In this document: in pieces, positions 10,973 to 28,857 of the stretch | Layout of the letters: every line of letters starts with the position of its first letter | Position numbering within the stretch: position 1 is the stretch's first letter | Origin: Verrucomicrobiota bacterium | GTDB lineage: Bacteria; Verrucomicrobiota; Verrucomicrobiia; Opitutales; Opitutaceae | NCBI GenBank assembly: GCA_016222805.1 | Contig: JACRQG010000007.1 | Coordinates: forward strand, 248,001 to 312,000 | DNA length: 64,000 bases | Direction: 5' to 3' | The notes under the pieces: model-generated | Seen by the model: the letters and a program-made list of their open reading frames with translations, nothing else | The model's database searches: none | Told to the model about the DNA's origin: nothing | Made by a program: the position numbers and the translations under genes

Positions 10973-11162
10973 GGCTATGTTACTCGGCCTGCTGCTCGCG
11001 CCCCTCGCGCTCCTGTTTGCCTGGGGCTGCGGCGTGGTCGCCTGGTCGGTGTGGTCGGCGGGATTGACGGCCGGCTGGCACAGCGGCGCGGTGCCGGTAG
11101 TCCTCGGGTGCGTGGTGCTCGGTTTTCTCCTGCTGGGCCTGCCTCGAAAGAGCCGTCGCTAG
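10971..11162 (+). CDS. small two-segment membrane protein on the opposite strand
   Basis: The protein is 63 aa: MAMLLGLLLAPLALLFAWGC, a second hydrophobic segment (VPVVLGCVVLGFLLLGLPRK) and a basic tail RKSRR. It runs against all neighbouring late genes and fills the gap between tape measure and tail chaperone exactly: its ATG overlaps the tape measure ATG and its TAG overlaps the chaperone stop. Codon third positions are mostly G or C as in real genes here, and no minus-strand frame covers the gap. It could be a holin-like or superinfection protein. Function and expression are unproven. Confidence 0.5.
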   Translation: MAMLLGLLLAPLALLFAWGCGVVAWSVWSAGLTAGWHSGAVPVVLGCVVLGFLLLGLPRKSRR

Positions 11163-11736
11163 ACCAGCCGCGGACCCTGCCGCTTGAGGCGCTCCGCTGC
11201 CGTGCGCGTGAAGAGATCGAGCTGGCGCAGCGTGTAGCCCCGCGGGCGATGGCAGAGCACCGCCTCCGCCGGATGCCCCTGGGAGATCAGGAAGTCGCAG
11301 ATGGCGGCGTAGCGCTCGTCGTCGAGGTGGCCGGCATCACCCGCGCCAGTCTGCCGGCCGCCTTTTTTCCCAGCTCGATCAACCCATCCGAGAGGTTGAC
11401 CTCCAGGGCGGCATCCAGGAGCGCCAAGGTCTCCAGGGTGCCGTGCTGGCGCAGCCACTCCTCATCCTTGCCCGTGCTGCGCGTCAGCAGAAAGAGCGAC
11501 AGTTCCCCGGCGCCGGAGACCAGATCGGAGAGTTTCGGAAGAAGCTGGGCGAGGTCGATGCGGCCGGTGTCCGGTGACACCGCGTGCGCCAGGATCTCCT
11601 TTGCCTGGAGAGAAAGGCGACGGAGGAATTCGAGGGCATCCTGCCAGGGCAGGTCGCGCACGACGACCGGGCCGGTCGAGAGCGTGACGGTGATCTCCGG
11701 GCGGAGGATCGAAGGAGAGGGTGAAGCGGAGGACAT
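11159..11736 (-). CDS. tail assembly chaperone, -1 frameshift product (gpGT type)
   Basis: A -1 ribosomal slip at 11362-11371 joins the first chaperone frame (from 11736) to a second open frame that ends at 11159. After the slip the protein continues GGRQTGAGDAGHLDDERYAA and ends RLKRQGPRLV, adding about 65 residues. The second frame has no good start of its own, yet its codon use is that of a real gene. In lambda-type tails the long form bridges tape measure and tail tube protein during assembly. The gene is immediately upstream of the tape measure gene, as expected. Confidence 0.8.
11287..11736 (-). CDS. tail assembly chaperone, short form (gpG type)
   Basis: The protein is 149 aa from normal termination. 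It begins with a beta-rich segment (PEITVTLSTGPVVVRDLPW) and continues with helices (ALEFLRRLSLQAKEILAH). This matches the gp41/gpG-like chaperones that precede the tape measure in siphoviruses and Mu-like phages. The residues translated beyond the slippery site (AAGRLARVMPATSTTSATPP) are low complexity, as often seen in the short form. It acts in tail assembly and is not part of the finished virion. Confidence 0.8.
   Translation of the reverse strand: MSSASPSPSILRPEITVTLSTGPVVVRDLPWQDALEFLRRLSLQAKEILAHAVSPDTGRIDLAQLLPKLSDLVSGAGELSLFLLTRSTGKDEEWLRQHGTLETLALLDAALEVNLSDGLIELGKKAAGRLARVMPATSTTSATPPSATS
11362..11371 (-). promoter_or_regulatory. programmed -1 frameshift slippery site
   Basis: On the minus strand the codons CTG GGA AAA AAG contain two overlapping canonical heptamers, G GGA AAA and A AAA AAG, in the correct phase relative to the first chaperone frame. 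The A AAA AAG form is the most efficient -1 slippery sequence known in E. coli. Slipping here opens exactly the downstream frame to 11159. Confidence 0.85.
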
Positions 11737-11790
11737 GGGAGGCGGCGGAAAAAAGGAAAACGTGGGAAAGACGGAAAAGAGGGAGACGGT

Positions 11791-12252
11791 TTACGGGTTG
11801 GGCGCGGCCGGCGGCGCGGCGGAGGTGCCGCCGAGGCCGGCGAGCGTGCCGCGGAGCGCGGCGATGTAGGTGCCGAGCGCAGCGACGTGGACCTCCAGGG
11901 CGGCCACGCGCGCGGTGGCGGTGGCGAGCTGGGTGGTCTTCGTCTGCAGTTCCGTCGCGTTGGCGGTCACGAGCGCCTGGGCCTCCGCTGCCTTGGCGGC
12001 GATTTGTGCGGCGGCCTGGTCTTGCGCCGCCTTGACGGCGTCGGCGATATGCTTGCGGGCGGCCAGCGCCGCGTCGCGCACCGCGCCGTCGACCTGGGGC
12101 GCCAGGGTCGGGTTGTTGCGCGCGAAGTCCGCGATCTGCTGGTTGGTGTTCTGGCCGTCGAGGAAGACGTTGCCGTACAAATCGACGGAGACGACAGGCT
12201 CGGCGGCGACGAGCGCCGCGGCGAGGGCGAGGTAGGCGAGGATGGATTTCAT
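11791..12252 (-). CDS. exported coiled-coil phage protein
   Basis: The protein is 153 aa. It has an N-terminal hydrophobic signal-like segment (MKSILAYLALAAALVAAEPV), then an Ala-rich helix (AARKHIADAVKAAQDQAAAQ) and heptad-type sequence (TKTTQLATATARVAALEVHV) predicting a coiled coil, and a Pro-rich C-terminus. A signal sequence is unusual for a gene between tail fibre-like and tail chaperone genes, and the gene before it (12289-13458) also has one. The two may form an exported or virion-surface pair. No family was recognised. Confidence 0.6.
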   Translation of the reverse strand: MKSILAYLALAAALVAAEPVVSVDLYGNVFLDGQNTNQQIADFARNNPTLAPQVDGAVRDAALAARKHIADAVKAAQDQAAAQIAAKAAEAQALVTANATELQTKTTQLATATARVAALEVHVAALGTYIAALRGTLAGLGGTSAAPPAAPNP

Positions 12253-12288
12253 GGGAGGAGGTGTTCGAACAGTGGGCGTAATTGAGCG

Positions 12289-13458
12289 TCAGCGGGCGCG
12301 CCGGGCGCGGATCCTGCCGTACGCTTCGATGGTTCCAGCGGAAAAACCGCATTCGATCACCAGGTATACGGTGGTCGTACTCGAGACGGAGTAGCGGTGC
12401 ATGGGGATTGGAGTCTTGCTCGTGACGGAGGCGGACACAGTGTTCAGATGGATCTGGGTAAACTGGTGCTCGATGAGTCCTGCGCTGGTGGTCGATGATC
12501 CTCCGGCAATGTAGGACATGGTTGCACCGGTGCCGCCGATGCTCACCACCCCGTCCACATCCCAATCTCCCGCAGTGAGGGAGATGCTGGTGATGTTGGC
12601 TGCCGTCCCGGTGGTGAGGGTGATGCGGCTGGCGAAGGCGAGAGTGCTGGAGATGTACTCGCCAGGCCAACCGGTCGGCGCGTTGTCGTTGGAGGTGGTG
12701 CCGAGGATTCGGCTTCCTGCCGACGAAAACAGTGCGGAGCGAACGCCTCCGGTCGTGACTTCCAGTTGATCCGTGCCGGCGCGAGCGAGGCCAGTATTGG
12801 TGTCGGCGCTGAATGTCAGCGCAGGGGTGGAGGTAGATCCATCAGGCAGGTACAAGGGACCTGCAACCGAACTTGGGCTGGTACCGACAACGGTGAGGTT
12901 GCTAGCGACAGCCAGCGATCCGCCAACCACCGTGGCGCTGCCGAGCGGCTGCAATCGCAGTTCTTTTCCTGACAATCCGGCCTCTACAGCTTGCACGAAT
13001 CCCCGGTCATTGCCGGTGTCGAAACCGATATAGATCCGCTTTCCCGTCCCGATGATAGCCCCCACTCCGGCGAGGGAGTCTGCAGTCGTACTCCCAGTAA
13101 TGTTGATCGGTCCAGAGAATGCGTGAAGACCAGTTCCAAGGGCGGAAAAACCGCCTATTACCTGCACGTCGGTCGTATTCGCCGGCACGCTGAGGGCGAG
13201 CGCCCCGCTGCGGTTGAAGAGCGACACGTCGTTCGTGGAACCGTAGCCTTTCAGCCACGCACCCCAGGTGGTGCTGGCGCCCGATTCCATGCCGGCCGCG
13301 GCCAGCGCGTTGCCGCTCGCGACGTTGGCTGTCGTGATGAACTTGCCGCCGGCGGTGACGTTGCCGGTCACGATTGCCTGGTCGCCCTCCAGGATGACCT
13401 GCCCAGGGAGGAGCGAGGCCAGGGCCACCACCAGGAGAAGAAGAAGGAGCTTTTTCAT
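12289..13458 (-). CDS. signal-peptide-bearing fibre or adhesin-like protein
   Basis: The protein is 389 aa. It starts with MKKLLLLLLVVALASLLPGQ, a strong signal-like segment, followed by beta-rich, Ser/Thr/Gly-rich sequence without long helices (TGNVTAGGKFITTANVASGN). It contains pieces typical of phage fibre and endosialidase-like stalks (LTFSADTNTGLARAG, DVSLFNRSGALALSVP). This may be a tail fibre that has gained an export signal or a fibre-like cargo protein. Codon use is less GC-biased between 12300 and 13200 than in neighbours, suggesting separate acquisition. The start overlaps the preceding gene's stop by 4 bp. Confidence 0.6.
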   Translation of the reverse strand: MKKLLLLLLVVALASLLPGQVILEGDQAIVTGNVTAGGKFITTANVASGNALAAAGMESGASTTWGAWLKGYGSTNDVSLFNRSGALALSVPANTTDVQVIGGFSALGTGLHAFSGPINITGSTTADSLAGVGAIIGTGKRIYIGFDTGNDRGFVQAVEAGLSGKELRLQPLGSATVVGGSLAVASNLTVVGTSPSSVAGPLYLPDGSTSTPALTFSADTNTGLARAGTDQLEVTTGGVRSALFSSAGSRILGTTSNDNAPTGWPGEYISSTLAFASRITLTTGTAANITSISLTAGDWDVDGVVSIGGTGATMSYIAGGSSTTSAGLIEHQFTQIHLNTVSASVTSKTPIPMHRYSVSSTTTVYLVIECGFSAGTIEAYGRIRARRAR

Positions 13459-14207
13459 TGGAGCTGGACGATGGCCTTGACGTCGAGGTTGGTGCCGGGC
13501 TTGGCGCTGCCGACCTGCGTCGGCTTGAACTGCACGATGTCGCCGATGGCGAGGACGAGCGGCGCCCCGAAGATCGTCTCCTCGGATTTCTGGCCCGCGG
13601 TGAGCGTGGCGACCTTGGCCTGGGCGACTCCGCCCTTGACCAGGTCGACCAGCAGATTGGCCCCGGTGGGCGCATCCTGCGCATTGAGCTGCAGGCCGAG
13701 CAGGCTGCAGGGCGCCTTCACGCGCCAGAAGCCCTCGACCTGGTTGACTGCCACGCGGCCGCCGAACTGGCCGATCGGCTGCACGTAGTTCACCGGGCCG
13801 GTGGGCTGCGAGATGACGAGCTGCACGGGCGGCGCGCCGGCGCCGCTCCCACCCACCCCGTAGTTGACGAGGAAGTTGGCCGAGTCGGCGTTGGGGTTGC
13901 CGTAGCTCACCTTGGCGACGAGCGTGCCGCGCTCCAGGGAGGCGAGCCCTCCGGAGAGTGTATCCAGCGAGGCCTTGTAGCCGAGATCGCCCGGCGAAGC
14001 CGCCCAGACGTTGAAGGTGGCCAGGGCGTTGTTCAGGTCGCCCGGCGAGTATAGGCGCAGCGCGATGGGAGCGCCGCCGGCCAGCAGCGCCGCCACCCCG
14101 TTGGTGACGAACTGCAGGAAGGCGGCCGCGACGCCGCCGCGCGGGAGGTTGGGCGCCACGCCGGCCGGCACGAGCTGGCCCGTCGTGGTTTCCAGAATAA
14201 GATTCAT
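13455..14207 (-). CDS. probable virion protein of unknown role
   Basis: The protein is 250 aa. It is beta-rich with no signal or membrane segment, and has the feel of a structural protein (LYSPGDLNNALATFNVWAAS; YVQPIGQFGGRVAVNQVEGF). It sits between the tail tube gene and the fibre-like gene and overlaps the latter by 4 bp. It could be a second tail decoration protein or a fibre-attachment protein; no family was recognised. Confidence 0.55.
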   Translation of the reverse strand: MNLILETTTGQLVPAGVAPNLPRGGVAAAFLQFVTNGVAALLAGGAPIALRLYSPGDLNNALATFNVWAASPGDLGYKASLDTLSGGLASLERGTLVAKVSYGNPNADSANFLVNYGVGGSGAGAPPVQLVISQPTGPVNYVQPIGQFGGRVAVNQVEGFWRVKAPCSLLGLQLNAQDAPTGANLLVDLVKGGVAQAKVATLTAGQKSEETIFGAPLVLAIGDIVQFKPTQVGSAKPGTNLDVKAIVQLQ

Positions 14208-14236
14208 AGGGTGAAGATTGGAGTGGTGGTTGCGAC

Positions 14237-14286
14237 GGCGCCCCGCACGCGATGCGCAGCATCGCCCCGTGCAGGGCGAACCCTGC
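14237..14286 (-). repeat. double-hairpin element after the tail tube gene
   Basis: On the minus strand, directly after the TGA of the tail tube gene, GCAGGG-TTCG-CCCTGC forms a hairpin with a UUCG tetraloop, followed by GCGATGC-TGC-GCATCGC and the sequence GTGCGGGGCGCC. A near-identical element follows the major capsid gene at 22048-22103. Placement behind the two most abundant structural genes suggests mRNA 3'-end stabilisation or partial termination. Confidence 0.75.
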
Positions 14287-15093
14287 TCAGTTCCGGTGGA
14301 GGACGGTGCCCTCGTCGGCGGCGACCATGAGCTTGATGCTGCCCTCGCTCTGGGAGTCGTGCTTCACGCCGAAGTTCTTCCCGAGCGTGAGGGTGAAGGA
14401 AAAATCGTTGTGCTCCTTCACGATCCGGTTGGTGCGGTTCTGATCGTAGGTGATCAGCCGGGCATAGCCGCGCCAGATCTGGTTCTGCATCGGGCGCAGG
14501 CCCACCATGGCCTTGTCGCTCGCCGCATCGATGGTCGGCGCGCTGATGGTCGCCACCACGTTGGCGGCTGGGAGCGCCGCGGGATTGATGAAACGCACCT
14601 GGCCCTGCTCGAGGTCGACCTGGTAATCGACGCCCTCGACCTTGCCGGCGATGGCGAAGGCCGAAAGGAAGCGCACCCGCACGCCATTCTTGAGGATGTC
14701 GTAGTTGCGGTTGAGCACGGCCGGCGCCGGGCCGGTGAAGACCAGGGCATCGGCGGCCTGCGCGGCGATGGCGGCCTGCGCCAGGTCCTGCCCGGCGATG
14801 CCGGCGAGGAAGAAGCGCAGCTTGCGCGCGTCGGCGATTTCGCGCGTGGTCAGCTCGTACCCGAGCGTGAGCAGGCCCGGCGTCTCGTCGACCTGGCGCA
14901 TCACGCCGTAGAACGGCTTGAGCACGGGCTCCGTCTTTGACTCGCCCTGCACTTCGTAGCCGATGAATTCGCCCATGTCGTCGTAGCCCTGGGCGATGGC
15001 GGCCGCTTTGGAGGCGGCATCGATGGCGAGGAGGAGGCGCAGCGTGCCCTGGATATTGGCCCGCGTGTGGTGGAGGTTGCTGGTCAGTGGCAT
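14287..15093 (-). CDS. major tail (tube) protein
   Basis: The protein is 268 aa. It is a soluble beta-rich protein (QVDLEQGQVRFINPAALPAA; DFSFTLTLGKNFGVKHDSQS) in the size range and genome position of siphovirus tail tube proteins: after the tail terminator and before the chaperones and tape measure. The MPLTSNLHHTRANIQGTLRL start is preceded by a 43-bp gap from the previous gene. No sheath protein is present, which supports a non-contractile tail. Assignment rests on position and composition more than on a distinct motif. Confidence 0.65.
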   Translation of the reverse strand: MPLTSNLHHTRANIQGTLRLLLAIDAASKAAAIAQGYDDMGEFIGYEVQGESKTEPVLKPFYGVMRQVDETPGLLTLGYELTTREIADARKLRFFLAGIAGQDLAQAAIAAQAADALVFTGPAPAVLNRNYDILKNGVRVRFLSAFAIAGKVEGVDYQVDLEQGQVRFINPAALPAANVVATISAPTIDAASDKAMVGLRPMQNQIWRGYARLITYDQNRTNRIVKEHNDFSFTLTLGKNFGVKHDSQSEGSIKLMVAADEGTVLHRN

Positions 15094-15136
15094 GGTGACT
15101 GAGGGCTGATGGTTGGGTTACGGAAAAAGCAGGGAG

Positions 15137-15640
15137 CTAGATTTCGACGGTGGTGTAGGCGGTGACGTGATACGTCACGCACGCCTTCGCCGGGATGAGC
15201 CGGAAGGGCTGGCTCTCCGGGCACTCGAATTCGTTGAGGCCGGGCAGGTGCGCCCCGAGGTCGAGCCCATTGGGCTGCCGGTGCACGGCCTTCATGGCGC
15301 GGACCGCGGCCGCGAGCGCCGGGCGGTAGGCGACACCGGCCTGCTGCGCGGCCGTCTGGTTGATGAGCACCAACTCCTCGATCTGCGCAACCAGGCGCAC
15401 CCGCAGCGACAGCCCGTCGCCGGTGCTCTGGCCCTGATCGCCATCGGGCAGCACCACGACCACGGCGAGGCCGAGCTTGTTGAGCGCCGTCGTGATCTTG
15501 TTGTTCAGGTCGCCCAAGCGCTCGGTGACGACCGGGATCGCCGGCGCGCCCGCGAAGAACGGATCCTGCGCGATCAGCGCCGCAAACTGATCCGCGACGA
15601 TCAGCAGCCGGTCTTCGATTCTGGAGGCGTCGTAGGGCAT
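15137..15640 (-). CDS. tail terminator-like protein (Mu gp37 / DUF1834-like)
   Basis: The protein is 167 aa. IEDRLLIVADQFAALIAQDP followed by a mixed alpha/beta stretch and a beta-rich end (FRLIPAKACVTYHVTAYTTV) fits the small head-tail joining proteins between gpG and the tail tube in Mu-like phages. Its start is 2 bp downstream of the gpG-like stop, so the genes are almost certainly co-translated. The family call comes from gene order and size. Confidence 0.6.
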   Translation of the reverse strand: MPYDASRIEDRLLIVADQFAALIAQDPFFAGAPAIPVVTERLGDLNNKITTALNKLGLAVVVVLPDGDQGQSTGDGLSLRVRLVAQIEELVLINQTAAQQAGVAYRPALAAAVRAMKAVHRQPNGLDLGAHLPGLNEFECPESQPFRLIPAKACVTYHVTAYTTVEI

Positions 15641-15642
15641 GG

Positions 15643-16248
15643 TCAGGCGGTGCGGGCGATCAAAGTGCGCAAGTGGTCCTCGCCGGCCGTGAGCGCGGTC
15701 TCCTCCAGCTCCTCCTCCGGCGGCAGCACGGTGGGATCGGGCTGCTGGCGGACGCGCCGCACCAGCACGTAGAGCACTTCGCCAAGGCCGGCGGTCGATT
15801 CCTCGGCCGGGCGCGCCAGCAGGGCGCGGCCGCGCGCGAGCGGGATAAAGTCGAGATCCTCAAACTCGCGAGCGCGGTGCCCGTAGGCATCGGGATGCAC
15901 CGGTAGCGTGAGAAAATGGCGGCCGGAGCCGTTCTGCCCGGCCTCGATCTCGCCGCCGAAGTAGCGCTGCGCGATGCCCACGTGGTTGGTGTCGACCCGC
16001 ACGCCGTCGCCGCCCACGAGCTGCGGCTGCTGCACGCCACGCCGCACCTGGCCGTAGAAGTGCGTGCGCTGGCCCCCGAGCTGGTTGGGCCGCTCGCGGT
16101 CGAGTTTGGTGAAGTGCCGGCGCAGCGCGCCGGCGATCGCGCGACCCATCACCCGCCGGACATCCGGCCGCTGCACGCCCTGGGAGAGGCGCAGGAGCGG
16201 CGGGAACTTCCGCGGATCGTCGAAGGTGATGGTGGTGCCCAGGCTCAC
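15643..16248 (-). CDS. virion morphogenesis protein, Mu gpG-like
   Basis: The protein is 201 aa. GRAIAGALRRHFTKLDRERP followed by FYGQVRRGVQQPQLV and a later DLDFIPLARGRALLARP segment matches the phage virion-morphogenesis (Mu gpG, P2 gpS) family, which acts in tail or head-tail assembly. The GTG start overlaps the stop of the MuF-like gene (GTGA), and I chose it because it gives the conserved beginning SLGTTITFDDPRKFPPLL with no extension. Order MuF then gpG is as in Mu. Confidence 0.8.
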   Translation of the reverse strand: MSLGTTITFDDPRKFPPLLRLSQGVQRPDVRRVMGRAIAGALRRHFTKLDRERPNQLGGQRTHFYGQVRRGVQQPQLVGGDGVRVDTNHVGIAQRYFGGEIEAGQNGSGRHFLTLPVHPDAYGHRAREFEDLDFIPLARGRALLARPAEESTAGLGEVLYVLVRRVRQQPDPTVLPPEEELEETALTAGEDHLRTLIARTA

Positions 16249-17078
16249 GCGCCACCTCCCCAGATGAAGACGCCCTGGGCATCGAAGCGGCCGAGGCCCG
16301 TCTCCTCGAGGAGCTGGCGCAGGCGGCCGCTGCGCACTTCGGGCGAGGCCCGCAGGCCGGCGTTGAAGGGCCGATCCTGCGGGAAGATCTGCGTATCGCG
16401 CCCGATGATGCCCAGCTCCATCGCATCGGCGCGTGCCACATCCTCCACGCCCATACCGCTCCCGAAATCGAACGGCTCGTACTCCACGCCGAAGCGGTTG
16501 AGCTGCGCCCACAGCGGATGCCCCACCAGCGCCACCATGCGGCCGCTGGAGCTGGCGGTGGCGCCATCGGCGAGCGTCGCGGCGCGGGCGGCATCCCAGC
16601 GCGCCGGCCAGTCTGCCCGCGGCACTTCCCGCGCCTCGACCCGCACGAACTCGCGGGCGGGAAACGCATCGAGCAGATCGGGCTGCTGCCCCTGTTTCCA
16701 CCAGCCGTAGCCCTGCGCCTGCTGCACGCCGATCGAGAGCTGCAGGTTGATCCGCCGGTCGCTGGCGAGATCCTGCAGGCCGCCTCGCTCGCCCTCCGGC
16801 GCGAGGTAGCCGGTGCCGCGGAGGAAGTTCTTCACCGCCAGGCGCTGGGTCGCGAGATCGGTGGCGCCGGCGACGAGATCGTTGATGCCGCTGTCGATGA
16901 CATCCAGGTGCTGCACGCTGCGCACGCCGGCGGAGAAGCGCGCGCGCTCCAGGACGGCCGCGTGCCCATCGGCTACAAGCTGCTCGAACTCGCGGGTGCG
17001 CAGCCCCGTGGGAAGAAGGGTGCGCGCCTGGGCGGCGTCGACCGCCTGGCGAAATGGCAGCGCCCTGGGGAACTTCAT
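16245..17078 (-). CDS. minor head protein, MuF / gp30-like
   Basis: The protein is 277 aa. The C-terminal segment FGVEYEPFDFGSGMGVEDVA is the signature stretch of Mu-like MuF-family minor capsid proteins, preceded by NGRMVAL-like SSGRMVALVGHPLWAQL. These proteins are packaged in the head and help DNA ejection or capsid assembly. In Mu the gene follows the portal gene directly; here it is about 8 kb downstream, after the Dam methylase, with a 4-bp overlap to it. The usual N-terminal domain is short. Confidence 0.75.
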   Translation of the reverse strand: MKFPRALPFRQAVDAAQARTLLPTGLRTREFEQLVADGHAAVLERARFSAGVRSVQHLDVIDSGINDLVAGATDLATQRLAVKNFLRGTGYLAPEGERGGLQDLASDRRINLQLSIGVQQAQGYGWWKQGQQPDLLDAFPAREFVRVEAREVPRADWPARWDAARAATLADGATASSSGRMVALVGHPLWAQLNRFGVEYEPFDFGSGMGVEDVARADAMELGIIGRDTQIFPQDRPFNAGLRASPEVRSGRLRQLLEETGLGRFDAQGVFIWGGGA

Positions 17079-17911
17079 GCGCCCCTCGCCTTCCGCTGCC
17101 GGACGGGCGCCGGCCGTTCGCTGGAGATGATCACCTCGTGGTACTTCCGGCCCGTGGCGCCAGTGCGGTTGCCGATCCCATTGGCGCGCTCGATCGCCGT
17201 GATCTCGTAGTCGCGCATGAGCTCGCGCACCTGGGCGCAGTCCTGGAAGGTGAAGAGCCACTTGCCCTGGAGCGTGACGATGCGGTGGCAGAACCGCGTG
17301 AGCTCGTGCTCGCTCCAGCCGGCGTAGGCGGCGCCGCCGGCGTCGAGGTACGGCGGATCCAAAAAGAAAAATGCGGCCTCGCTGTCGTAGATTTCGAGGC
17401 ACTTCTCCCAGGGCAGCTCCTCGATGCAGACCTTGTCGAAGCGCCGGTTGAGGGCGCGGATTGCCAGCATCCGCTGGGCACGCGAACCGAGGGAGGCCGT
17501 CGGCGTCTTTCGCGAGGTGCCGAAATGCCGGCCCATGGCGCCGAAGGAGAGTTTGTTGCGGATGAACCAGCGGGCGGCGCGCTGGATCTCCGTCAGGCCC
17601 GGCTGCTGCAGGTAGTCGCGGAACTCGCGCCGCGAGTTCATCACCAGGTCCATTTCGTCCAGAACGGGATCGAGGTGAAACTTCACCTGGCGGTAGAAGG
17701 AGATCAGGTCGCCATCGAGATCGTTGATTACCTCGAGATCGCTCTCGGGTTTGCCAAGCAGCACGGCGCCGCCGCCGCCGAAAACTTCGCAGTACAGCGT
17801 GTGCTCCGGGATGAGCGGCAGGATGTACTTCAGCAGGCGCTGCTTTCCGCCAGGGCGACCGATCACCGGCCGCGCGCGGGGCAACTGCGGAGTTGGATCG
17901 AGATCGTCCAT
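17075..17911 (-). CDS. dam: DNA adenine methyltransferase, D12 class
   Basis: The protein is 278 aa from the ATG chosen because it overlaps the upstream stop as ATGA. It has the SAM-binding start (RPGGKQRLLKYILPLIPEHT), FGGGGAVLLGKPESDLEVIND, and the catalytic DPPY in FFFLDPPYLDAGG, the hallmarks of D12-class N6-adenine methylases (Dam family, GATC-type). It lies inside the head operon, coupled by 4-bp overlaps on both sides, so it is made late. It may protect phage DNA from restriction or mark progeny genomes. No cognate nuclease is nearby. Confidence 0.88.
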   Translation of the reverse strand: MDDLDPTPQLPRARPVIGRPGGKQRLLKYILPLIPEHTLYCEVFGGGGAVLLGKPESDLEVINDLDGDLISFYRQVKFHLDPVLDEMDLVMNSRREFRDYLQQPGLTEIQRAARWFIRNKLSFGAMGRHFGTSRKTPTASLGSRAQRMLAIRALNRRFDKVCIEELPWEKCLEIYDSEAAFFFLDPPYLDAGGAAYAGWSEHELTRFCHRIVTLQGKWLFTFQDCAQVRELMRDYEITAIERANGIGNRTGATGRKYHEVIISSERPAPVRQRKARGA

Positions 17912-18267
17912 CAGGGAGCGAAGAGCGCGTCCCACCGCGCGGCGGCGATGATGCCGAGCTGGTCTAGGGCGGCGCGAGCGGCGGGAAAATCGGGATCATC
18001 CTCGCGGATGGAGCCGGTCGCGGCCGCGCGGGTGACGAGGTAGTCGATCTGCCAGTTGGCCTGGCGGGCGGCGAAGAGCGCGGCGCGCTCGCCCGCGGAC
18101 AGGCGCTGCAGGATGATGTCCGTATCCTGCTGGTAGGGCTGCCGCGGCAGCCAACCCGCGGCACGCAGGGCGTTGAACTCGTCGACGGAGACAGTTTCCC
18201 AGCCTTCACCTGGAGGGCGCGACTCTGAGCCGGAAAACAAATTGGCGGTGCGGTGGATGTGGATCAT
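17911..18267 (-). CDS. small phage protein before the methylase
   Basis: The protein is 118 aa, helical, soluble, beginning MIHIHRTANLFSGSESRPPG and ending AARWDALFAP. It starts 5 bp after the stop of the glycine-rich fibre protein and overlaps the methylase start by 4 bp. The arrangement after a fibre-type gene suggests a fibre assembly chaperone, but I see no family signature. Confidence 0.6.
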   Translation of the reverse strand: MIHIHRTANLFSGSESRPPGEGWETVSVDEFNALRAAGWLPRQPYQQDTDIILQRLSAGERAALFAARQANWQIDYLVTRAAATGSIREDDPDFPAARAALDQLGIIAAARWDALFAP

Positions 18268-18272
18268 GGCGC

Positions 18273-20399
18273 TCAGTAGTTGGAAATCACGATCACGTAG
18301 CCATTCGCTCCCGCGCCTCCGGCGCCGCCCGTGGGAATACCGCCGCCACCGCCACCGCCACCGCCGGCCGGAAAACCGCCGGGACCGCCCACGCCGCCGG
18401 TGCCCGTGGGGTGGCCTGTGCCGCCTCCGCCGCCGCTGCCAGATGGAGTGGCAGCGACGGTGTAGCTGAGGCCTTGGGTACCGGAAGCGCCATCGGAAGC
18501 GCCGCCACCCGCGCCACCGCCGCCACCGGAGCGATTGTAGATGCCACTGGCTCCGCCCTGGGTGCCGGTGATCCGCGACCCCCCGGCGGTCACTCCACCG
18601 CCGACGCCACCGCCTGCGCCGCCAAAGAGAGCACAGCTCCCGACGCCTTGCGTCCCGGCGCCATCGGAGCCGGCGCCGCCCGCGCCGCCATGCTCGGCCG
18701 CGGATTGGCCGTTGTTCACGTTGCCGCGGGCACCACCACCTGCCACGGCCCACTGGATCACCGAGCTGTTGCCGGGATCTCCGCCCGCGACTACGCTGGT
18801 CCCGCTGCCGGTCGTTCCGGCGCTGCCGGTTCCGCCGCCACCTCCGCCGACCGTCGCTTCGCCGGTAGCGCCTCCTTTGCCGCCTCCGCCACCATAGGCT
18901 CGCACGTAGGCGCCGAAGGACGAGGCCCCGCCCGCGCCACCCGCGGACCCATTGGCTGCGCTGCCTCCGCTCCCGGAAGTGCCGCCGGTGCCGACGGTGA
19001 CGGTGACGAGGGACGGGAGATCTGCGGCCGAAAACGTCGCTGCGTTGCGGGCGCCGCCGCCACCACCGCCACCACCTTGCGCAGCCCCGGAGGCAGAGCC
19101 GCGCCCGCCGCCGCCACCACCACCGGCACCCCAAACGATCACATGCACCGATTTCGGCGTCCCAGCGGGCTTGGTCCAGGTACCACTACTCGTGAACGTT
19201 TGTACGTCGGATGCGGTCCCACCCCCGCCGCCCGCTGGCGCCAGTGCGGCGATGGCCTGGGCGACGCGCTGCGGAGTCCAGGAGCGGATTGAGGTGGAGG
19301 TGCCGGCCTCGGCTTCAGCCTGGGAGACGGCGGTCTGGACCGGTTCCTTCCCGTCCAGGGCGGTCTGGAGGCCGGTGGTATCCGAGACCGTGTGACTATG
19401 GGTCGTGGGAGTGCGCGCGTCTGAGAGGCGCGTGTCGCTGCCCTTCACCACCTCGCCGGCGGCGGCGTTGCCTGTGGCCGCGACGTTGAGCGGGGCCGCC
19501 GTGCCCAGCGTGGGCCGGCCGGTGAGCGACGCATAGGCGCCGTCAAAAAGCGTCGGCTTGCCGGTGAGATCTGCGTAGGCGCCGCTAAAGAGGGTGGGTT
19601 TGCCGCTCAGGTCGGCGTACGCGCCGGAAAAAGACGAGGTGCCGGCGCCGATGGCTGTGCGCGCGGCGGCCTGGTCCACGGCCGTCACGACGGCGCGCCC
19701 GGTCGCCGTGCTGTCGCTGATCGCCGTGGCCGGGTGCGTATGGGCGGAGGGCGTGCGCGCATCGCTGAGGCGCGTGTCGTCACCCTTCACAACTTCACTG
19801 GCGCCGGCGTTGCCCGCGGCTGCGACGTTCAGCGCGGCCGCCGTGCCCAGCGTGGGCCGACCGGTGAGCGACGCATAGGCGCCATCAAACAACGCCGGCT
19901 TGCCGGTGAGGTCCGCGTAGGCGCCGCTGAAGAGCGCGGGTTTGCCGCTCAGGTCGGCGTACGCGCCGGAAGTCGCGACCAGCGCCAAGGTCGGCGCGCC
20001 GGTGAGCGAGCTGTACTGCCCATCGAAGAGCGCGGGCTTGCCCGTGAGGTCCGCGTAGGCACCGCTGAAGAGCGTGGGCTTGCCGGTGATCTTCGCCCAG
20101 GCAAGGCCCGTCAGCCAGGCGGGGTCGGCGTAGGTGCCGCCGGTGGTGACGGCCGTGCCGTCGCTCAATGGCACCAGGGCGCTGGCGGCCAGGTTCTTCA
20201 GCGCCAGGCGCACGTCGGCCGGAGTGATCTCAGTCGCGCCTGTATCGGCAAAAAGCGTGTCGATCTCGGCGTTGAGCGCGCTGCGCGTCTTCGCCGTCTG
20301 GCCCGGACAGGAGACCACGAAATACACGAACCCCACGAAAAGAAGCCCGATGGCTTTCGTGGATTTGGTGTGTTTGGTGGGGATCGAGATCGGGCTCAT
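18273..20399 (-). CDS. repeat-rich tail-fibre-like protein with glycine-rich C-terminus
   Basis: The protein is 708 aa. Residues ~10-35 are hydrophobic (GLLFVGFVYFVVSCPGQ), like an export signal with a cysteine. Residues ~95-290 consist of a short repeat of the form FSGAYADLTGKP, present about eleven times, the beta-strand repeat seen in many phage fibres. HTH motifs (SAHTHPATAI, TTHSHTVSDT) may bind a metal. The last ~280 residues are extremely Gly-rich, like receptor-binding poly-glycine tips of T-even-type adhesins. The gene lies among head genes, an uncommon place for a fibre. The host-like N-terminus suggests recombination. Confidence 0.75.
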   Translation of the reverse strand: MSPISIPTKHTKSTKAIGLLFVGFVYFVVSCPGQTAKTRSALNAEIDTLFADTGATEITPADVRLALKNLAASALVPLSDGTAVTTGGTYADPAWLTGLAWAKITGKPTLFSGAYADLTGKPALFDGQYSSLTGAPTLALVATSGAYADLSGKPALFSGAYADLTGKPALFDGAYASLTGRPTLGTAAALNVAAAGNAGASEVVKGDDTRLSDARTPSAHTHPATAISDSTATGRAVVTAVDQAAARTAIGAGTSSFSGAYADLSGKPTLFSGAYADLTGKPTLFDGAYASLTGRPTLGTAAPLNVAATGNAAAGEVVKGSDTRLSDARTPTTHSHTVSDTTGLQTALDGKEPVQTAVSQAEAEAGTSTSIRSWTPQRVAQAIAALAPAGGGGGTASDVQTFTSSGTWTKPAGTPKSVHVIVWGAGGGGGGGRGSASGAAQGGGGGGGGARNAATFSAADLPSLVTVTVGTGGTSGSGGSAANGSAGGAGGASSFGAYVRAYGGGGGKGGATGEATVGGGGGGTGSAGTTGSGTSVVAGGDPGNSSVIQWAVAGGGARGNVNNGQSAAEHGGAGGAGSDGAGTQGVGSCALFGGAGGGVGGGVTAGGSRITGTQGGASGIYNRSGGGGGAGGGASDGASGTQGLSYTVAATPSGSGGGGGTGHPTGTGGVGGPGGFPAGGGGGGGGGIPTGGAGGAGANGYVIVISNY
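19495..19629. repeat. 135-bp direct repeat inside the fibre gene, copy 1
   Basis: This segment and 19837-19971 are the same length and nearly identical, encoding a block of three fibre repeats. Such duplications allow repeat-number change by recombination, altering fibre length. Confidence 0.8.
19837..19971. repeat. 135-bp direct repeat inside the fibre gene, copy 2
   Basis: Second copy of the block at 19495-19629, differing at scattered, mostly synonymous positions. Confidence 0.8.
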
Positions 20400-20587
20400 G
20401 AGCGTTTGCGGAAGCGGGAGTTGAAGCGCACCGAAAAGCCCCGTGGCCCCCCGGCGACCACCTGCGCGGTGGTGACGAGGGCGGCGGCCTGCAGGCGCGG
20501 GCCGAGCGCGAGCGGGCGCGCGGTGCGGCCCGCCCCGAGGGCGAGCGACCCGTGGTGGATCGAGGCGCTGAGGACGAGCGGCGTCAT
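20396..20587 (-). CDS. small basic phage protein
   Basis: The protein is 63 aa, ending in FSVRFNSRFRKRS, strongly basic. Its ATG overlaps the preceding stop by 4 bp and its stop overlaps the fibre ATG by 4 bp, so it is coupled on both sides. No family was recognised; it could be a small structural or nucleic-acid-binding protein. Confidence 0.55.
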   Translation of the reverse strand: MTPLVLSASIHHGSLALGAGRTARPLALGPRLQAAALVTTAQVVAGGPRGFSVRFNSRFRKRS

Positions 20588-20946
20588 GTGGCGACGAAGG
20601 CGATCTCCTCCTCGATCATGTCGATGAACACCGCGCCCGGCTCGACGGTGAAGCCGGCATCCGGCACGCGGAAGGTCCAGCGGAGCCGCAGCGGCGTGCC
20701 CTTGGTGAGCGCGGCGGAGACGGCGGAGGTGAGTTCGTACTCCACCTCGGCCACGCCGCCCGGCCCCTGGCGCAGCTCCGGATGGGTGCCGAGCGTGGCG
20801 CTGGCCTTTTCCAGGGCGCCCTGGAAGAGCTGCACCCGCAGGCTCGAGAGACTCGAGAGCGGCAGCGGCGTGACGCCGTCGGCCATGAGGAGGCTGCGGC
20901 GGACGAGGAGGTTTTCCCCGCGGAAGATCGTGGGCAGGGTGGCCAT
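20584..20946 (-). CDS. phage protein, probable head-tail junction module
   Basis: The protein is 120 aa, beta-rich (MATLPTIFRGENLLVRRSLL; GTPLRLRWTFRVPDAG), ending with an acidic helix (VFIDMIEEEIAFVAT). It follows the gp36-like gene by 3 bp. Size and place fit a neck or baseplate-type accessory protein; this is positional inference only. Confidence 0.55.
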   Translation of the reverse strand: MATLPTIFRGENLLVRRSLLMADGVTPLPLSSLSSLRVQLFQGALEKASATLGTHPELRQGPGGVAEVEYELTSAVSAALTKGTPLRLRWTFRVPDAGFTVEPGAVFIDMIEEEIAFVAT

Positions 20947-20949
20947 GGG

Positions 20950-21426
20950 TCAGATGCCGTCCTGGTCGGCGGCCGTCCAGCGGCGCTCCGGCGCGCTGAT
21001 GAGCGGCGCGGGCGTGGCGGCCTGCACCGTGGGGGCCGCCTCGGGATTGAGGGACGCCTCGACCGTGATGCGGCCCTCCGCAATGCGCTCCAGGTAGCGC
21101 ACATCCTGGCGCCACTCTTCGCGCTCCTGGTCGGTCAGCTCCAGGGCGCCGGCGACGTTGAGCCGGCTCTGGCCCTCGCGCAGCGCCATGCGCAGCGCGA
21201 GCGGCTTCAGGCTGGGAGGGATTTTTTCGGGATCGGCATCGAGCACGGTGCAGCCGCCGGCCGCGATCTCGGCGCGGATGCGCGTGACCACGCCGGCGAC
21301 GATGCCCGGCATGGGATCGGGCTGGCCCTCGCCGAGGGCGGCCGACTGCAGCGCGGCGACCAGGGCGGCGGCCTTGCCGACCGGCAGATCGGCGACGGTG
21401 AGAGTGGTCCAGGCGACGGCGGGCAT
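20950..21426 (-). CDS. head completion protein, Mu gp36-like (DUF1320)
   Basis: The protein is 158 aa. A leading beta segment (MPAVAWTTLTVADLPVGKAA) followed by helices with VTRIRAEIAAGGCTVLDADP and PPSLKPLALRMALREGQSRL is the pattern of DUF1320/gp36-type connector proteins, which assemble below the portal. The chosen ATG is 2 bp from the previous stop; longer in-frame starts overlap the previous gene. Confidence 0.65.
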   Translation of the reverse strand: MPAVAWTTLTVADLPVGKAAALVAALQSAALGEGQPDPMPGIVAGVVTRIRAEIAAGGCTVLDADPEKIPPSLKPLALRMALREGQSRLNVAGALELTDQEREEWRQDVRYLERIAEGRITVEASLNPEAAPTVQAATPAPLISAPERRWTAADQDGI

Positions 21427-21428
21427 GG

Positions 21429-21740
21429 TCAGGCGGCGTGGGCGAAGTGGCGCTCGCAATGCAGGCGCGCGGCGTCGAGCGAGTTGCAATCGACTGCGAC
21501 CTGCGTTCCGATGATGGCGCGGTGCGGCTGCACCCAGTCACCGAGGAGGTCGAAACGCCCCTCGCCGAAAGGCTCGACCACGGCGACACTTTCGCCATCG
21601 AGCGTCATGACCTGGGCTCCGTCGCTGCGTTCGCACCAGGCGAGACAGCGCGGGTCGCGATCGTCGCGAGCGGTGGCCGCATGGTGCGAGGGGAATGCGC
21701 GACGGTTGTCGCGCTTGTGCATGACGTGGGTGCGTTTCAT
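21429..21740 (-). CDS. hypothetical phage protein
   Basis: The protein is 103 aa with many His and Arg residues at its N-terminus (MKRTHVMHKRDNRRAFPSHH) and CLAWCE in the middle. The C-terminus (DCNSLDAARLHCERHFAHAA) also has Cys and His, so a metal-binding fold is possible. It lies between capsid and gp36-like genes; no family was recognised. Confidence 0.5.
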   Translation of the reverse strand: MKRTHVMHKRDNRRAFPSHHAATARDDRDPRCLAWCERSDGAQVMTLDGESVAVVEPFGEGRFDLLGDWVQPHRAIIGTQVAVDCNSLDAARLHCERHFAHAA

Positions 21741-21840
21741 TGGGCGGGCATGGTTCGTGGTGGCCTCCAAAGAGCGCCGCGAGATCGATGGACTTTCGTC
21801 CTACACCGCGGCGCTCGAGGAAATCACCCGCGAGCGCGGG

Positions 21841-22008
21841 TTACTTCTTCTCGGGTTTCGGCGGAGCTTCCTTCACTTCCTCGGCCTGCTTGAAGCGGAG
21901 CCAGGCGTCGGTGTGCGGGCCGCGGTCGAGTTCGACCACGGTGTCTTTCGGCAGGTTCTTGCCGCCGAAGATCACGCCGTCGGGAGAGGTGATTTTGAAT
22001 TTGGACAT
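21841..22008 (-). CDS. small phage protein between capsid and connector genes
   Basis: The protein is 55 aa: MSKFKITSPDGVIFGGKNLP, a middle segment DRGPHTDAWLRFKQ and a Lys/Pro/Glu-rich tail. Small proteins with such a start (a beta pair beginning KFKI or similar) often follow the capsid gene in Mu-like phages. Codon use and spacing support a real gene. Function is unknown. Confidence 0.55.
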   Translation of the reverse strand: MSKFKITSPDGVIFGGKNLPKDTVVELDRGPHTDAWLRFKQAEEVKEAPPKPEKK

Positions 22009-22047
22009 GGGCTGATGAGTTGGGAGCTATGGGTGGAGAGTTGAGAG

Positions 22048-22103
22048 CGGCGCCCCGCACCTCATGCGATGCGGAGCATCGCCGGGTGCAGGGCGAGCCC
22101 TGC
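22048..22103 (-). repeat. double-hairpin element after the major capsid gene
   Basis: On the minus strand, directly after the TGA of the capsid gene, GCAGGG-CTCG-CCCTGC is followed by GCGATGC-TCC-GCATCGC and then GTGCGGGGCGCC. The element closely matches 14237-14286; loops differ while stems are kept, which argues that RNA structure is selected. Confidence 0.75.
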
Positions 22104-23042
22104 TCAGGTGAGGACGTCGTCGAAGCGGTACGCCAGCTCGGCGCCGATCACGCGCTCGTCGGTGAAGTGCTTGATGCGATGGATGTCCGCATCGACGCTC
22201 GTGTCGCGGTAGGTCTCGACGGCCGAGCCCACCTCGGCGCCGCCGGCGATCTGGTTCCAGAGGAACGTGCGCGCGGCCGTGGGCGCCTGCAGATCCTGCG
22301 CGGGATTGCAGACGGCCAGGACGACGCTGTCGCCCCACAGATACGCGGGGTTGAGGACCTGACCCTCGGCTGCGGTGTTCTCGACTGCGCCGGCGATGAT
22401 GAGCTGGTCGACCTCGAACGCCTTGCGCACCTGATCCCGCGTGAGCGGGCCATCCGCGAACGGGTAGAGGCCCTTGATCTTCGGATGCTCGGTGAGCTTG
22501 TCGTAGACGGTCTGGCTCATGGCGAGCACGTTGGGCATCAGGCCGGAGTTGACCTGGATGACGCGCTTGGCCGCCTTCACATCGCCCACCGGATCGCTGG
22601 CGGCGTTGGCAAAGTCGTCCCACTTGACCGGCGCGTTGGCGTGCGGCACGCCGGCGGCGTCGTAGATGGCCTTCACCCGCACCTCGTGGTTGAAGAGGAT
22701 GATGAGACCGTTGCGCCGGATGGCGGCCTGGTCGGCGTCGAAGGCGACCGCGTACTTCTTGCGCTCCTCGTCGGCGACGGGGATTTCCGAGCCGTAGTTT
22801 TTGCACGCGAAGGTAGCATCCGACAGCTTCATGGAGCTGCGCACGTAGGGCGTGCCGGGCGCGCGCGCCGCGAGGCGCGGGATGTTGAGGAAGTTCTCGC
22901 GATCGAAGACGTAGTAGAAGGCCGCCTGCTCGCCGGAGCGGAAGAGCGGGGCGAGCGTGAGGCCGACGAAGCCGGCGGAGTCGACGTAGTATTTGTTCAA
23001 CGTCGACGAGAGGGCCGGATTGTGAGTGACAGAGGATTTCAT
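22104..23042 (-). CDS. major capsid protein
   Basis: The protein is 312 aa. The N-terminus (SSTLNKYYVDSAGFVGLTLA) and the segments RPLF-like LAPLFRSGEQAAFYYVFDRE and EIPVADEERKKYAVAFDADQ are typical of a family of ~310-aa HK97-fold capsid proteins in siphovirus and Mu-like prophages. It follows the protease/scaffold and decoration genes as expected and is followed by a stable double-hairpin element. There is no N-terminal delta domain, which fits a separate scaffold. Confidence 0.82.
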   Translation of the reverse strand: MKSSVTHNPALSSTLNKYYVDSAGFVGLTLAPLFRSGEQAAFYYVFDRENFLNIPRLAARAPGTPYVRSSMKLSDATFACKNYGSEIPVADEERKKYAVAFDADQAAIRRNGLIILFNHEVRVKAIYDAAGVPHANAPVKWDDFANAASDPVGDVKAAKRVIQVNSGLMPNVLAMSQTVYDKLTEHPKIKGLYPFADGPLTRDQVRKAFEVDQLIIAGAVENTAAEGQVLNPAYLWGDSVVLAVCNPAQDLQAPTAARTFLWNQIAGGAEVGSAVETYRDTSVDADIHRIKHFTDERVIGAELAYRFDDVLT

Positions 23043-23091
23043 CTATGAGTTGGAGATGAGGATTGAGCGTGGAGGGTGGACGGGCGCGGGC

Positions 23092-23622
23092 TCAGACCAT
23101 GAGCTTCTGGGCCTGGAGGATGGCCTTGACGGCATCGCGGAGGGCGGCGACCTCGGGGCCGGTCGCGCCGCCCGCGGTGAAGGCGAGCGCCGTGAGCCCG
23201 TCGGCACTGGGGACGAGCGGCTGCCCCTCGACGACATCGGCGACCTCGATCACATCGCCGGCGGCACCGTTGCCCTTGCCCTGGCGATCGAGCTTGAAGC
23301 CGAGGGAGCGACCACCGGCGGCGGCGGTGACCACACGCGCCGTGCCGGCGTGCGCGATCACCCGCGCGCCGGGCACGATCGCACCATTCTGCTTGATGCG
23401 CACCGTGCCGTTTTTGCCGAGGATGCGCGCGCGCACCTGGCCGTCGCCATCCTGGAGGCGGCCGACCATGACGTGCGTCGCGGGGGAGGTGCCGTCGTAA
23501 AGGACGGCCTTGCCGGTGGCGTCGAGGGAGAGGAGCAGGTCCTCCTTGCCGTCGAGTGCGCCTGCGACCGCTTCCGTGAGCGTATCGTAGTTCTGTTCGA
23601 GGACGGTGACTTTCTGAGACAT
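23092..23622 (-). CDS. capsid decoration or stabilisation protein
   Basis: The protein is 176 aa. The start MSQKVTVLEQNYDTLTEAVA is helical; the rest is beta-rich (PGARVIAHAGTARVVTAAAG; GDVIEVADVVEGQPLVPSAD), like capsid head-fibre or DUF2190-type decoration proteins found between scaffold and capsid genes. Start chosen at the first ATG after the upstream gene; the longer frame overlaps the protease gene. Confidence 0.6.
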   Translation of the reverse strand: MSQKVTVLEQNYDTLTEAVAGALDGKEDLLLSLDATGKAVLYDGTSPATHVMVGRLQDGDGQVRARILGKNGTVRIKQNGAIVPGARVIAHAGTARVVTAAAGGRSLGFKLDRQGKGNGAAGDVIEVADVVEGQPLVPSADGLTALAFTAGGATGPEVAALRDAVKAILQAQKLMV

Positions 23623-23659
23623 GGGTCGAAAGAGTTGAGGGTTGAGGTTGGGCGGGGAA

Positions 23660-24196
23660 TTACTCGCCGCCGTTCTGCATCGCGTCGCGGTAGGCGCCGT
23701 AGAGCGCCTGCTCCTCGCGCGCGACGGCCGCGATCGCATCGGCCTTGTCGAGCTTGCGGGCGACCATGACTTCGCCGACGCGGTTCATGAACGCATCGAC
23801 AGCGTCAGTGCCCTCCTCTTCGCCGCCCCCCTTGGCGGCGGCGGCCGCGCCCTTGCCGGCGCTGTGCACCGGGGCCTTCTTGCTGGCGGCGGGCTTCAGG
23901 CCCTTGAGCAGGGTGACCGTCCCGACGTAGTCCTCGGTAAGGCGGTTCTTCCATGCCTCCTTCGATTCCTCCGTGATGACGCCCTTGAATTCATCGAGCG
24001 TCTTCGTGACGGAATCGGTCAGGAGCGCGGCATGGCGGTTCTTCAGCGCGGTGTGGTCCGCGGCGAGCGTATCGAGCTGCGACTTGGTGGTGTCGTAGCT
24101 GGAGGCGCGGTTCTTGAACGCCTCGACGGCCGCGATGACGTGCTCATCGGTCGCGGTGGCGGCGAGGCCACAGATCAGGATCAGGCGATCTTTCAT
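23660..24196 (-). CDS. internal-start scaffold protein, Mu gpZ-like
   Basis: An in-frame ATG at 24196 (MKDRLILICGLAATATDEHV) marks the change from protease to helical scaffold sequence, as with gpI/gpZ of Mu. Translation from here would give a 178-aa scaffold rich in Lys and Ala. The upstream sequence AGCAGTCAC has no strong ribosome site, so the internal start is inferred from family behaviour. Confidence 0.5.
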   Translation of the reverse strand: MKDRLILICGLAATATDEHVIAAVEAFKNRASSYDTTKSQLDTLAADHTALKNRHAALLTDSVTKTLDEFKGVITEESKEAWKNRLTEDYVGTVTLLKGLKPAASKKAPVHSAGKGAAAAAKGGGEEEGTDAVDAFMNRVGEVMVARKLDKADAIAAVAREEQALYGAYRDAMQNGGE

Positions 24197-24769
24197 GTGA
24201 CTGCTGTTGGTCTTGGTTTCGGATGTGGCCTCGCGGCCGTGAAAGGTCTCCCCTGCGCGGTTCCAGAACGGCTTCAGGGCGTCGCCCATGTTGGGCATGT
24301 TGGTGAGGCCGGCGTCGTTGACCTCGATGGGGCGCACGCGCAGCTCGCCCAGTTTCTCCGTCTGCCGGGGGAACCAGACCGGCGAGAGAAACTTGTACTT
24401 CCGGTTTACGATCGCCGCCTGGCCGTCGGGCGTCCACTCGCCGCGCGCCCAGACGCCGTCCGGGCGCTTCTCCAGTTCATTCACCCAGGCGGCGGCAGCG
24501 CTGGAGCCGTTCTCCTGGTGTGCGAAGTGCTCGAAGCCGACGAGCATCTGGTAGGCGGGGTTCTTCGTGCGCCGATTTTGGAAGGCGCCGACGATCCGAT
24601 CGCAGGCGATATCGTCGACGACCTGCTGGTAGACGCGGACCTTGTCCCCCTCTTTCCGGGGAATGGGAAAGGTGCCCTTGGGGACCAGGTGAAACCAGTC
24701 CTTGGGGTCGAAGGACCCGGCGCGGTTGAGGAAGGGCGCGAGGAGATCGGTGGCGTTTTCGGTTTCCAT
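23660..24769 (-). CDS. head maturation protease with C-terminal scaffold, Mu gpI-like
   Basis: The protein is 369 aa. The N-terminal half (RIVGAFQNRRTKNPAYQMLV, VWARGEWTPDGQAAIVNRKY, KFLSPVWF) is the phage I-like protease (peptidase U35 type) sequence pattern. The C-terminal half is helical and Ala/Lys-rich and works as scaffold. An ATG at 24769 (METENATDL) is preferred to an upstream TTG. In Mu the gene also makes the scaffold gpZ from an internal start, and a candidate start is present here at 24196. It acts inside the prohead and is removed by self-cleavage. Confidence 0.82.
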   Translation of the reverse strand: METENATDLLAPFLNRAGSFDPKDWFHLVPKGTFPIPRKEGDKVRVYQQVVDDIACDRIVGAFQNRRTKNPAYQMLVGFEHFAHQENGSSAAAAWVNELEKRPDGVWARGEWTPDGQAAIVNRKYKFLSPVWFPRQTEKLGELRVRPIEVNDAGLTNMPNMGDALKPFWNRAGETFHGREATSETKTNSSHMKDRLILICGLAATATDEHVIAAVEAFKNRASSYDTTKSQLDTLAADHTALKNRHAALLTDSVTKTLDEFKGVITEESKEAWKNRLTEDYVGTVTLLKGLKPAASKKAPVHSAGKGAAAAAKGGGEEEGTDAVDAFMNRVGEVMVARKLDKADAIAAVAREEQALYGAYRDAMQNGGE

Positions 24770-24905
24770 GAAGGGGGTGTCGCGGGTGCGGTGGCTCAAA
24801 AACCCGTTTAATCCTGTTTAATAGGCCGGTTTCCGGGCCTCGGGCCGCCGATGCGGCACTTGATACCCACCGGGGCGACTTCGGGCCGCTGGCGCGAAAT
24901 GGGCC

Positions 24906-28725: not shown

Positions 28726-28746
28726 CGCGCAAAAGAGGAAAGATTG

Positions 28747-28784
28747 CTCCGGGGGCGGCGCCCGCTACGTCGCCGCCCCCGGAG
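28747..28784 (-). terminator. 14-bp perfect hairpin upstream of the terminase genes
   Basis: CTCCGGGGGCGGCG (28747-28760) pairs without mismatch with CGCCGCCCCCGGAG (28771-28784). On the minus strand it is followed by CAATCTTTCCTCTTTT, a T-rich stretch, so it could terminate or attenuate transcription between the lysis and packaging genes; on the plus strand it is followed by GTTTTATC. Confidence 0.6.
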
Positions 28785-28857
28785 GTTTTATCTAGTCCCG
28801 CATGAACGCCGGCGCCCGCCGGGCGCCGGAAGAGGAGGATGGTGCGGATCGGGGTCA

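Follow-up and report, generated by a model that had tools for sequence, protein, structure and literature searches.

How does a phage come to carry, immediately behind two of its virion genes, a pair of closely similar hairpin elements that are found nowhere else in its host's assembly? The question is raised by 64,000 nucleotides of DNA from a Verrucomicrobiota bacterium (assembly GCA_016222805.1, contig JACRQG010000007.1, positions 248,001 to 312,000 of the forward strand; by "the window" we mean the whole of this stretch), in which a preliminary description had noticed two short elements behind the major tail and major capsid genes of a prophage and had supposed that they set the ends of those two messages and raise the level of the two proteins. 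The answer we favor, with good confidence, is a different one: that the two elements are members of a mobile palindromic repeat family dispersed in Verrucomicrobiota, akin to the repetitive extragenic palindromes (REPs) and REP doublets forming hairpins (REPINs), which rides on phages and is kept at gene ends. Its unit is a hairpin, P, a spacer, ACC, and a second hairpin, R, often forming one end of a longer mosaic or of an inverted pair, and we refer to it as the P-ACC-R family.

What, to begin with, do the elements look like? Both lie on the minus strand, element 1 from 14289 to about 14238 and element 2 from 22106 to about 22050, and the first bases of each are the TGA stop codon of the gene before it (14287-15093 and 22104-23042, respectively), so the earlier statement that they begin at stop codons is confirmed. 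It is equally true, as had been said, that these are two related elements with kept stems and changed loops: the layout common to both is TGA, P (GCAGGG-YTCG-CCCTGC), AC, R (GCGATGC-NNN-GCATCGC) and then GTGCGGGGCGC, with the stems GCAGGG/CCCTGC and GCGATGC/GCATCGC identical and the loops differing between elements 1 and 2 (TTCG and CTCG in P, TGC and TCC in R). The parts, with the genes to which they are attached, are these:

14287..15093, minus strand: probable major tail protein gene (by position, and by homologues in loci L024 and L030 that weakly match phrog_807)
14287..14289, minus strand: TGA that closes the probable major tail gene, with P beginning one base on (from the sequence and the tail-homologue matches)
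14271..14286, minus strand: hairpin P of element 1, GCAGGG-TTCG-CCCTGC
14249..14265, minus strand: hairpin R of element 1, GCGATGC-TGC-GCATCGC
14238..14248, minus strand: tail of element 1, GTGCGGGGCGC
22104..23042, minus strand: major capsid protein gene (phrog_1005, E 2.5e-49; PF03864)
22104..22106, minus strand: TGA that closes the major capsid gene, with P beginning one base on (the gene matches phrog_1005)
22088..22103, minus strand: hairpin P of element 2, GCAGGG-CTCG-CCCTGC (helix 1 of the family covariation)
22066..22082, minus strand: hairpin R of element 2, GCGATGC-TCC-GCATCGC (helix 2 of the family covariation)
22050..22061, minus strand: tail of element 2, GGTGCGGGGCGC, which can pair with the 3' half of P in a long-stem alternative and also occurs in chromosomal mosaics

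Are two copies all that there is? With one window copy as the query, the other is recovered at E 9.5e-13 from the 7.9-Mb host assembly, and no third copy was found there by sequence query, exact P, exact R or covariance model. That model, built from nine copies (two from the window, one from a phage and six from chromosomes), gives quite another picture elsewhere. Run at E 0.01 on ten genomes of a family that we label f20, it returned 109, 94, 40, 38, 17, 11, 5, 1, 0 and 0 matches, the four richest genomes being G020, G138, G054 and G039, in that order, and the two without a match G069 and G094. Across the order (233 genomes, at E 0.001 and with stricter filters), 15 genomes matched, namely the host, eight members of f20 and six genomes from families f13, f16, f21 and f27; the host's matches in that scan were the two window copies only, and no other genome of the host's own family in the sample matched. 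The window elements, that is, belong to a family that reaches high copy number in some chromosomes, where its copies stand behind many genes. We found no description of it, or of such repeats on these phages or bacteria, at the level of literature search listings.

Simpler patterns were also scanned. P with any four-base loop and one mismatch allowed occurs in 22 of 387 genomes of the phylum, the host included, with five matches each in G054 and G020; in all eight of these ten places that were obtained as loci, P is followed by ACC and a second hairpin. Outside f20, many of the places fall within long open frames, and four of the six in genus g121 have one sequence in common. With the loop restricted to NTCG (again one mismatch), the class scan of 384 genomes found the host only. 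Two groups of candidates were rejected as members: nine places outside the host with exact P matches (from 10 of 252 genomes in the host's own family), which score at most 21.7 bits under the model, and 17 loci in 15 other genomes of the 252 that matched element 2 by BLAST at E 0.01, which score at most 19.4 bits (one further locus, L064, was left out, being the window's own element 1).

Do the hairpins themselves matter, or only the letters? The stems are invariant within the window, so support from covariation can come only from the wider family. In the nine-row alignment of the model, five of seven pairs in R show changes on both sides and the six pairs of P are invariant. In 74 distinct rows, 11 of 13 pairs show changes on both sides, including all six of P; 95.9% of cells pair (82.6% in shuffles), and the cells changed on both sides number 105, as against 24.2 in shuffles and at most 33 in slid controls. 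The number of pair types alone was not above shuffles (it was reached in 149 of 500). Since the rows of this larger alignment were fitted to the structure, and some of them are partial or reverse-strand matches, its covariation numbers lean towards the structure. Energies tell the other half of the story: folded as a single strand, the window copies prefer to two hairpins a single long stem that joins the 3' half of P to the tail (-30.5 against -22.2 for the hairpins, and -38.6 against -22.0 kcal/mol). The tandem hairpins of the preliminary description are thus backed by covariation in both P and R across the family, whereas the window copies themselves fold better as a single long stem.

And where does the family sit? 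In 17 of 40 copies from G020 (taken from the better-scoring of its 109), P starts within -1 to +2 nucleotides of the stop codon that closes an open frame of 90 codons or more, the range allowed by the test being -1 to +6; random positions do so in 1.7% of cases and random intergenic positions in 4.1%, and the binomial probability of 17 of 40 at the latter rate is 9e-14. The stop codons at these 17 are TAG (twelve), TAA (three) and TGA (two). A second set was drawn from at least 12 other genomes; of its 40 copies, 13 adjoin a stop codon (at -1 or 0 in twelve cases and at +4 in one; 1.8% at random), and five more start 0-1 nucleotides past the end of a transfer RNA (tRNA) called by ARAGORN, the random control covering stop codons only. 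This second set consists of 40 of 46 matches: six in overlapping loci (L122, L129) were dropped, L104, L111, L118 and L126 were excluded as G020 copies counted already, L132 and L139 correspond to the two elements of the window itself, and L115 and L116, both at tRNA-Arg and probably one ancestral site, were kept. A strong preference for the very 3' ends of genes is evident in both sets. Three of the 40 G020 copies lie outside every 90-codon open frame, against 2.6% of bases, a figure of little weight in GC-rich DNA; crude calls of open reading frames (ORFs) place five between divergent genes and 11 within an ORF. Of the earlier interpretation, the general part, an element placed precisely where a message ends, is supported by position, at stop codons and tRNA 3' ends, and the confinement to capsid and tail genes fails. 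Dense tRNA arrays occur in L115 (272-2869; 17 tRNA genes in 3 kb), L116 and L109, and the repeat directly follows some of these tRNA genes.

Many G020 copies are also part of something larger. In 12 of 40 G020 stretches, an inverted second match lies within about 80-265 bp (E below 0.003), and a thirteenth does so at E 0.07. In many of the 40 (L170-L209), we saw long mosaics of several further hairpin modules after P-R, for example ATGGCATTTTCAGGAGAAAATGCCATGG and GATGGGGC...GCCCCATC. The tail GGTGCGGGGCGC of element 2 occurs three times in 126 kb of these stretches, always within a mosaic element (0.11 expected by composition, and none for the reversed pattern).

Other phages carry the family as well, at other sites. 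Viral contigs were scanned for P with AC (six contigs) and for R (five contigs), and the one contig present in both with the full architecture, L033, has TGA, P, ACCC and then a hairpin, GAGAAAC-TTC-GTTTCTC, whose stem is entirely different and yet paired. A second pattern search added a second phage contig with the P-ACC-R layout, L069. These two have a unit in common, which separates a portal-like gene from a protease-like gene and has a P-ACC-R-like end on either side, and they differ in opposite directions at two junctions: L033 has an element behind a methyltransferase-like gene, before the gene that follows, where L069 has none, and L069 has one in the gap that separates a small gene from the portal-like gene, where L033 has none (the gene labels in both contigs are readings of translations, with no family search behind them). 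These are our comparisons of occupied and unoccupied sites in close relatives, and a possible four-base repeat, GTGA, is seen at one L069 site only. The long-stem pattern was found in none of the viral contigs, and a capsid-protein scan of them with one sequence gave no relative. P with a five-base loop was found in at least 120 viral stretches; among the 80 loci listed, which were thus preselected for a P-like hairpin, the top model score was 25.9 bits, and this we took as the chance level. Among phage records, the L033 element has no match, and element 2 gives three weak 25-base matches (E 0.6).

Is the element, then, tied to capsid and tail genes, as first supposed? Related prophages were located through the capsid protein and then compared gene by gene, which is the search that the preliminary description itself had proposed, and at these genes the element was absent in the relatives examined. 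Behind the capsid gene it is missing in L023 (66% identity) and in L027 (49%). At the capsid stop of L025 (53%), there is a different strong hairpin that has the string GCTCGCCCTGC in common with element 2; the covariance model does not match it, and it could be a remote relative of element 2 or a product of chance. L028 (38%) has no model match across its 20.9-kb locus at E 0.1. Behind the tail gene, L030 (the closest relative, with a tail protein 73% identical) and L024 carry other spacers and no element, and L026 has none at the positional equivalent of the tail gene. The capsid junction of L030 is uninformative because its capsid gene, which is 97% identical to residue 234, runs into the downstream gene at position 10701 (JACRKC010000131.1), a fusion that reflects either a deletion or a misassembly. 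L030 does have a model match of 30.7 bits within its portal gene, at a place where the alignment to the window's portal is poor, and this is probably a copy of the repeat, to judge by its score. The prophage in L025 and L026 belongs to G054, which places this type of phage in a repeat-rich lineage.

As to the two genes behind which the window copies stand, the capsid half of the original naming is well supported by the profile match. The other half is weaker: gene 14287-15093 has itself no convincing family match in profile searches, its predicted structure (pLDDT 30) offers no usable fold, and we call it probably the major tail gene on its position and on homologues in L024 and L030 that weakly match phrog_807 (major tail protein; E 0.0083 and 0.055). 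Several other features of the neighborhood deserve a line. A DNA methyltransferase gene (17075-17935, minus strand; phrog_56, E 2.3e-60) lies amid the virion genes and is also present in L023 and L024, and a glycine-rich, fibre-like gene (18273-20399) has internal repeats at 42-base and 342-base spacing in 19373-20127. Next to the capsid gene, on its downstream side, comes a small gene (21841-22009) that has a hairpin, CCCGC-GCTC-GCGGG, directly at its TAA stop (21827-21840, minus strand), with neither ACC nor hairpin R. A G+C-rich and almost perfect hairpin (about 14 bp), CTCCGGGGGCGGCG...CGCCGCCCCCGGAG, is found at 28736-28795 (minus strand), upstream of the terminase-side genes, and L023 likewise has strong hairpins near the terminase-side position (3166-3225 and 3286-3345). 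A search of window positions 10000-26000 against Rfam found no family at the elements, its single match lying elsewhere and below the gathering score.

How might all this have come about? In the account that we propose, copies would move as nonautonomous mobile DNA and be retained where the upstream gene stays intact; the phage would have acquired the element in another host lineage, and the element would then have been copied within the phage genome. In late phage messenger RNA (mRNA), the hairpins would form immediately past each stop codon, where they may make 3'-5' decay slower or reinitiation rarer, an effect that would be a by-product of position and not a device for capsid and tail. A general effect of the repeat on mRNA 3' ends is possible. 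Several things weigh against the mobile-repeat account. No transposase is tied to the family by a PF01797 (Y1 transposase) profile search of 13 genomes: nine have matches, G138 with its 94 copies having four and G094, which has no copy of the repeat, three; G020, G054 and G039 (109, 40 and 38 copies) have none. Nor did we reconstruct any insertion event that left a clean duplication of its target, and L030, compared with the window behind the tail gene, has a different spacer and not a clean empty site. The L030 copy depends on a single 30.7-bit match within very GC-rich coding DNA, and the route by which the phage acquired the repeat is something we infer. Finally, at one chromosomal site at least, common to two species, G020 (L172) and G138 (L125), the outer pair of P is G-C in one and C-G in the other, with TAG and TGA as the stop, and a shared, compensated site with a kept stop also fits a functional, vertically inherited 3' element.

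This last idea, extended to the whole family, is the strongest rival: that we are looking at a functional, nonmobile RNA signal for 3' ends (termination, processing or protection) that recombination has multiplied and phages have borrowed. It would account for copies that meet stop codons and tRNA 3' ends so precisely, for the stem covariation and for the compensated orthologous copy just described. We nonetheless consider it unlikely, for 23 of the 40 G020 copies stand away from any stop codon of the kind counted above, the crude calls put five between divergent genes and 11 within an ORF, the number of matches runs from 109 to 0 inside the single family f20, and sister phages differ in which sites are occupied. 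The device first supposed, in which the element behind capsid and tail genes sets the mRNA 3' end and raises both proteins, we think improbable. In its favor are the exact placement at both stop codons, the strength of the two structures (in the 60 nucleotides downstream of 19 minus-strand gene ends of the cluster, the two elements are the most stable, at -34.9 and -43.3 kcal/mol, the next being -27.0) and that other strong hairpin behind the capsid gene of the G054 prophage, with GCTCGCCCTGC in common; yet the element is absent at these genes in the related prophages examined, and both other phages and chromosomes carry it behind genes of unrelated kinds. Nor does either window copy have a U-tract after it, which makes classical intrinsic termination unlikely, and neither is among the 15 terminator-like sites in 10000-29000. 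Might it be a site where a protein binds, or from which the phage packages its DNA? A palindrome present in only two copies in the host genome invites the thought, but the many chromosomal copies of the same family and the absence at these places in related prophages make it very improbable indeed.

If the P-ACC-R family is a mobile palindromic repeat, is it simply one of those already known? REPs, as excerpted from PMC3733652, are short GTAG/CGTC-tagged palindromes that recur many times, for the most part after coding regions; inverted dimers are common, and some copies lie inside ORFs. Their GTAG termini frequently supply the TAG stop codon, and Opitutus terrae, also of the Verrucomicrobia, is rich in them. 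Our family resembles them as a short, dispersed palindrome in many copies, mostly outside genes (the 11 of 40 in crude ORFs aside). Unlike them, it is a two-hairpin unit with an ACC spacer, with a few copies at tRNA 3' ends and some on phages, and the bases that precede P vary in the 40 G020 copies and the 40 others (judged by eye, unscored), without a fixed GTAG/CGTC tag before the stem. Because that tag is not fixed and because the Y1 transposase gene was not found in three of the four high-copy genomes, the family is not a classical REP. REPINs are, in the excerpts of PMC3116915, REP doublets with inverted palindromic ends and a spacer, treated as miniature mobile DNA; the inverted doublets in G020 recall them, whereas no link to a REP-associated tyrosine transposase (RAYT) was found, spacing and internal modules vary, and the window copies are single P-R ends. 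Rickettsia palindromic elements (cited in the excerpted PMC3733652) are palindromic repeats found also within coding sequence, a trait that the probable copy in the L030 portal gene recalls; the many copies at gene ends set our family apart. The start-associated and extended start-associated sequences (SAS/ESAS) of cluster K mycobacteriophages are short conserved intergenic repeats in a phage genome, and SAS precede start codons; the P-ACC-R family is instead anchored at the stop codon and mainly chromosomal. It is tempting, though we hold it only tentatively, to think of a new class of miniature mobile palindrome that enters precisely at gene 3' ends (stop codons and the CCA ends of tRNAs) without a RAYT, perhaps guided by RNA ends, with phages as its vectors between bacterial families.

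Palindromic repeats of the REP kind are usually treated as chromosomal and linked to a transposase of their own. Here is a family without the usual tag, and without the usual transposase in three of four high-copy genomes, that is placed with near-base precision at two unrelated types of gene end and is carried on phages, and it makes both the spread of palindromic repeats between species and their accumulation at 3' ends directly testable.

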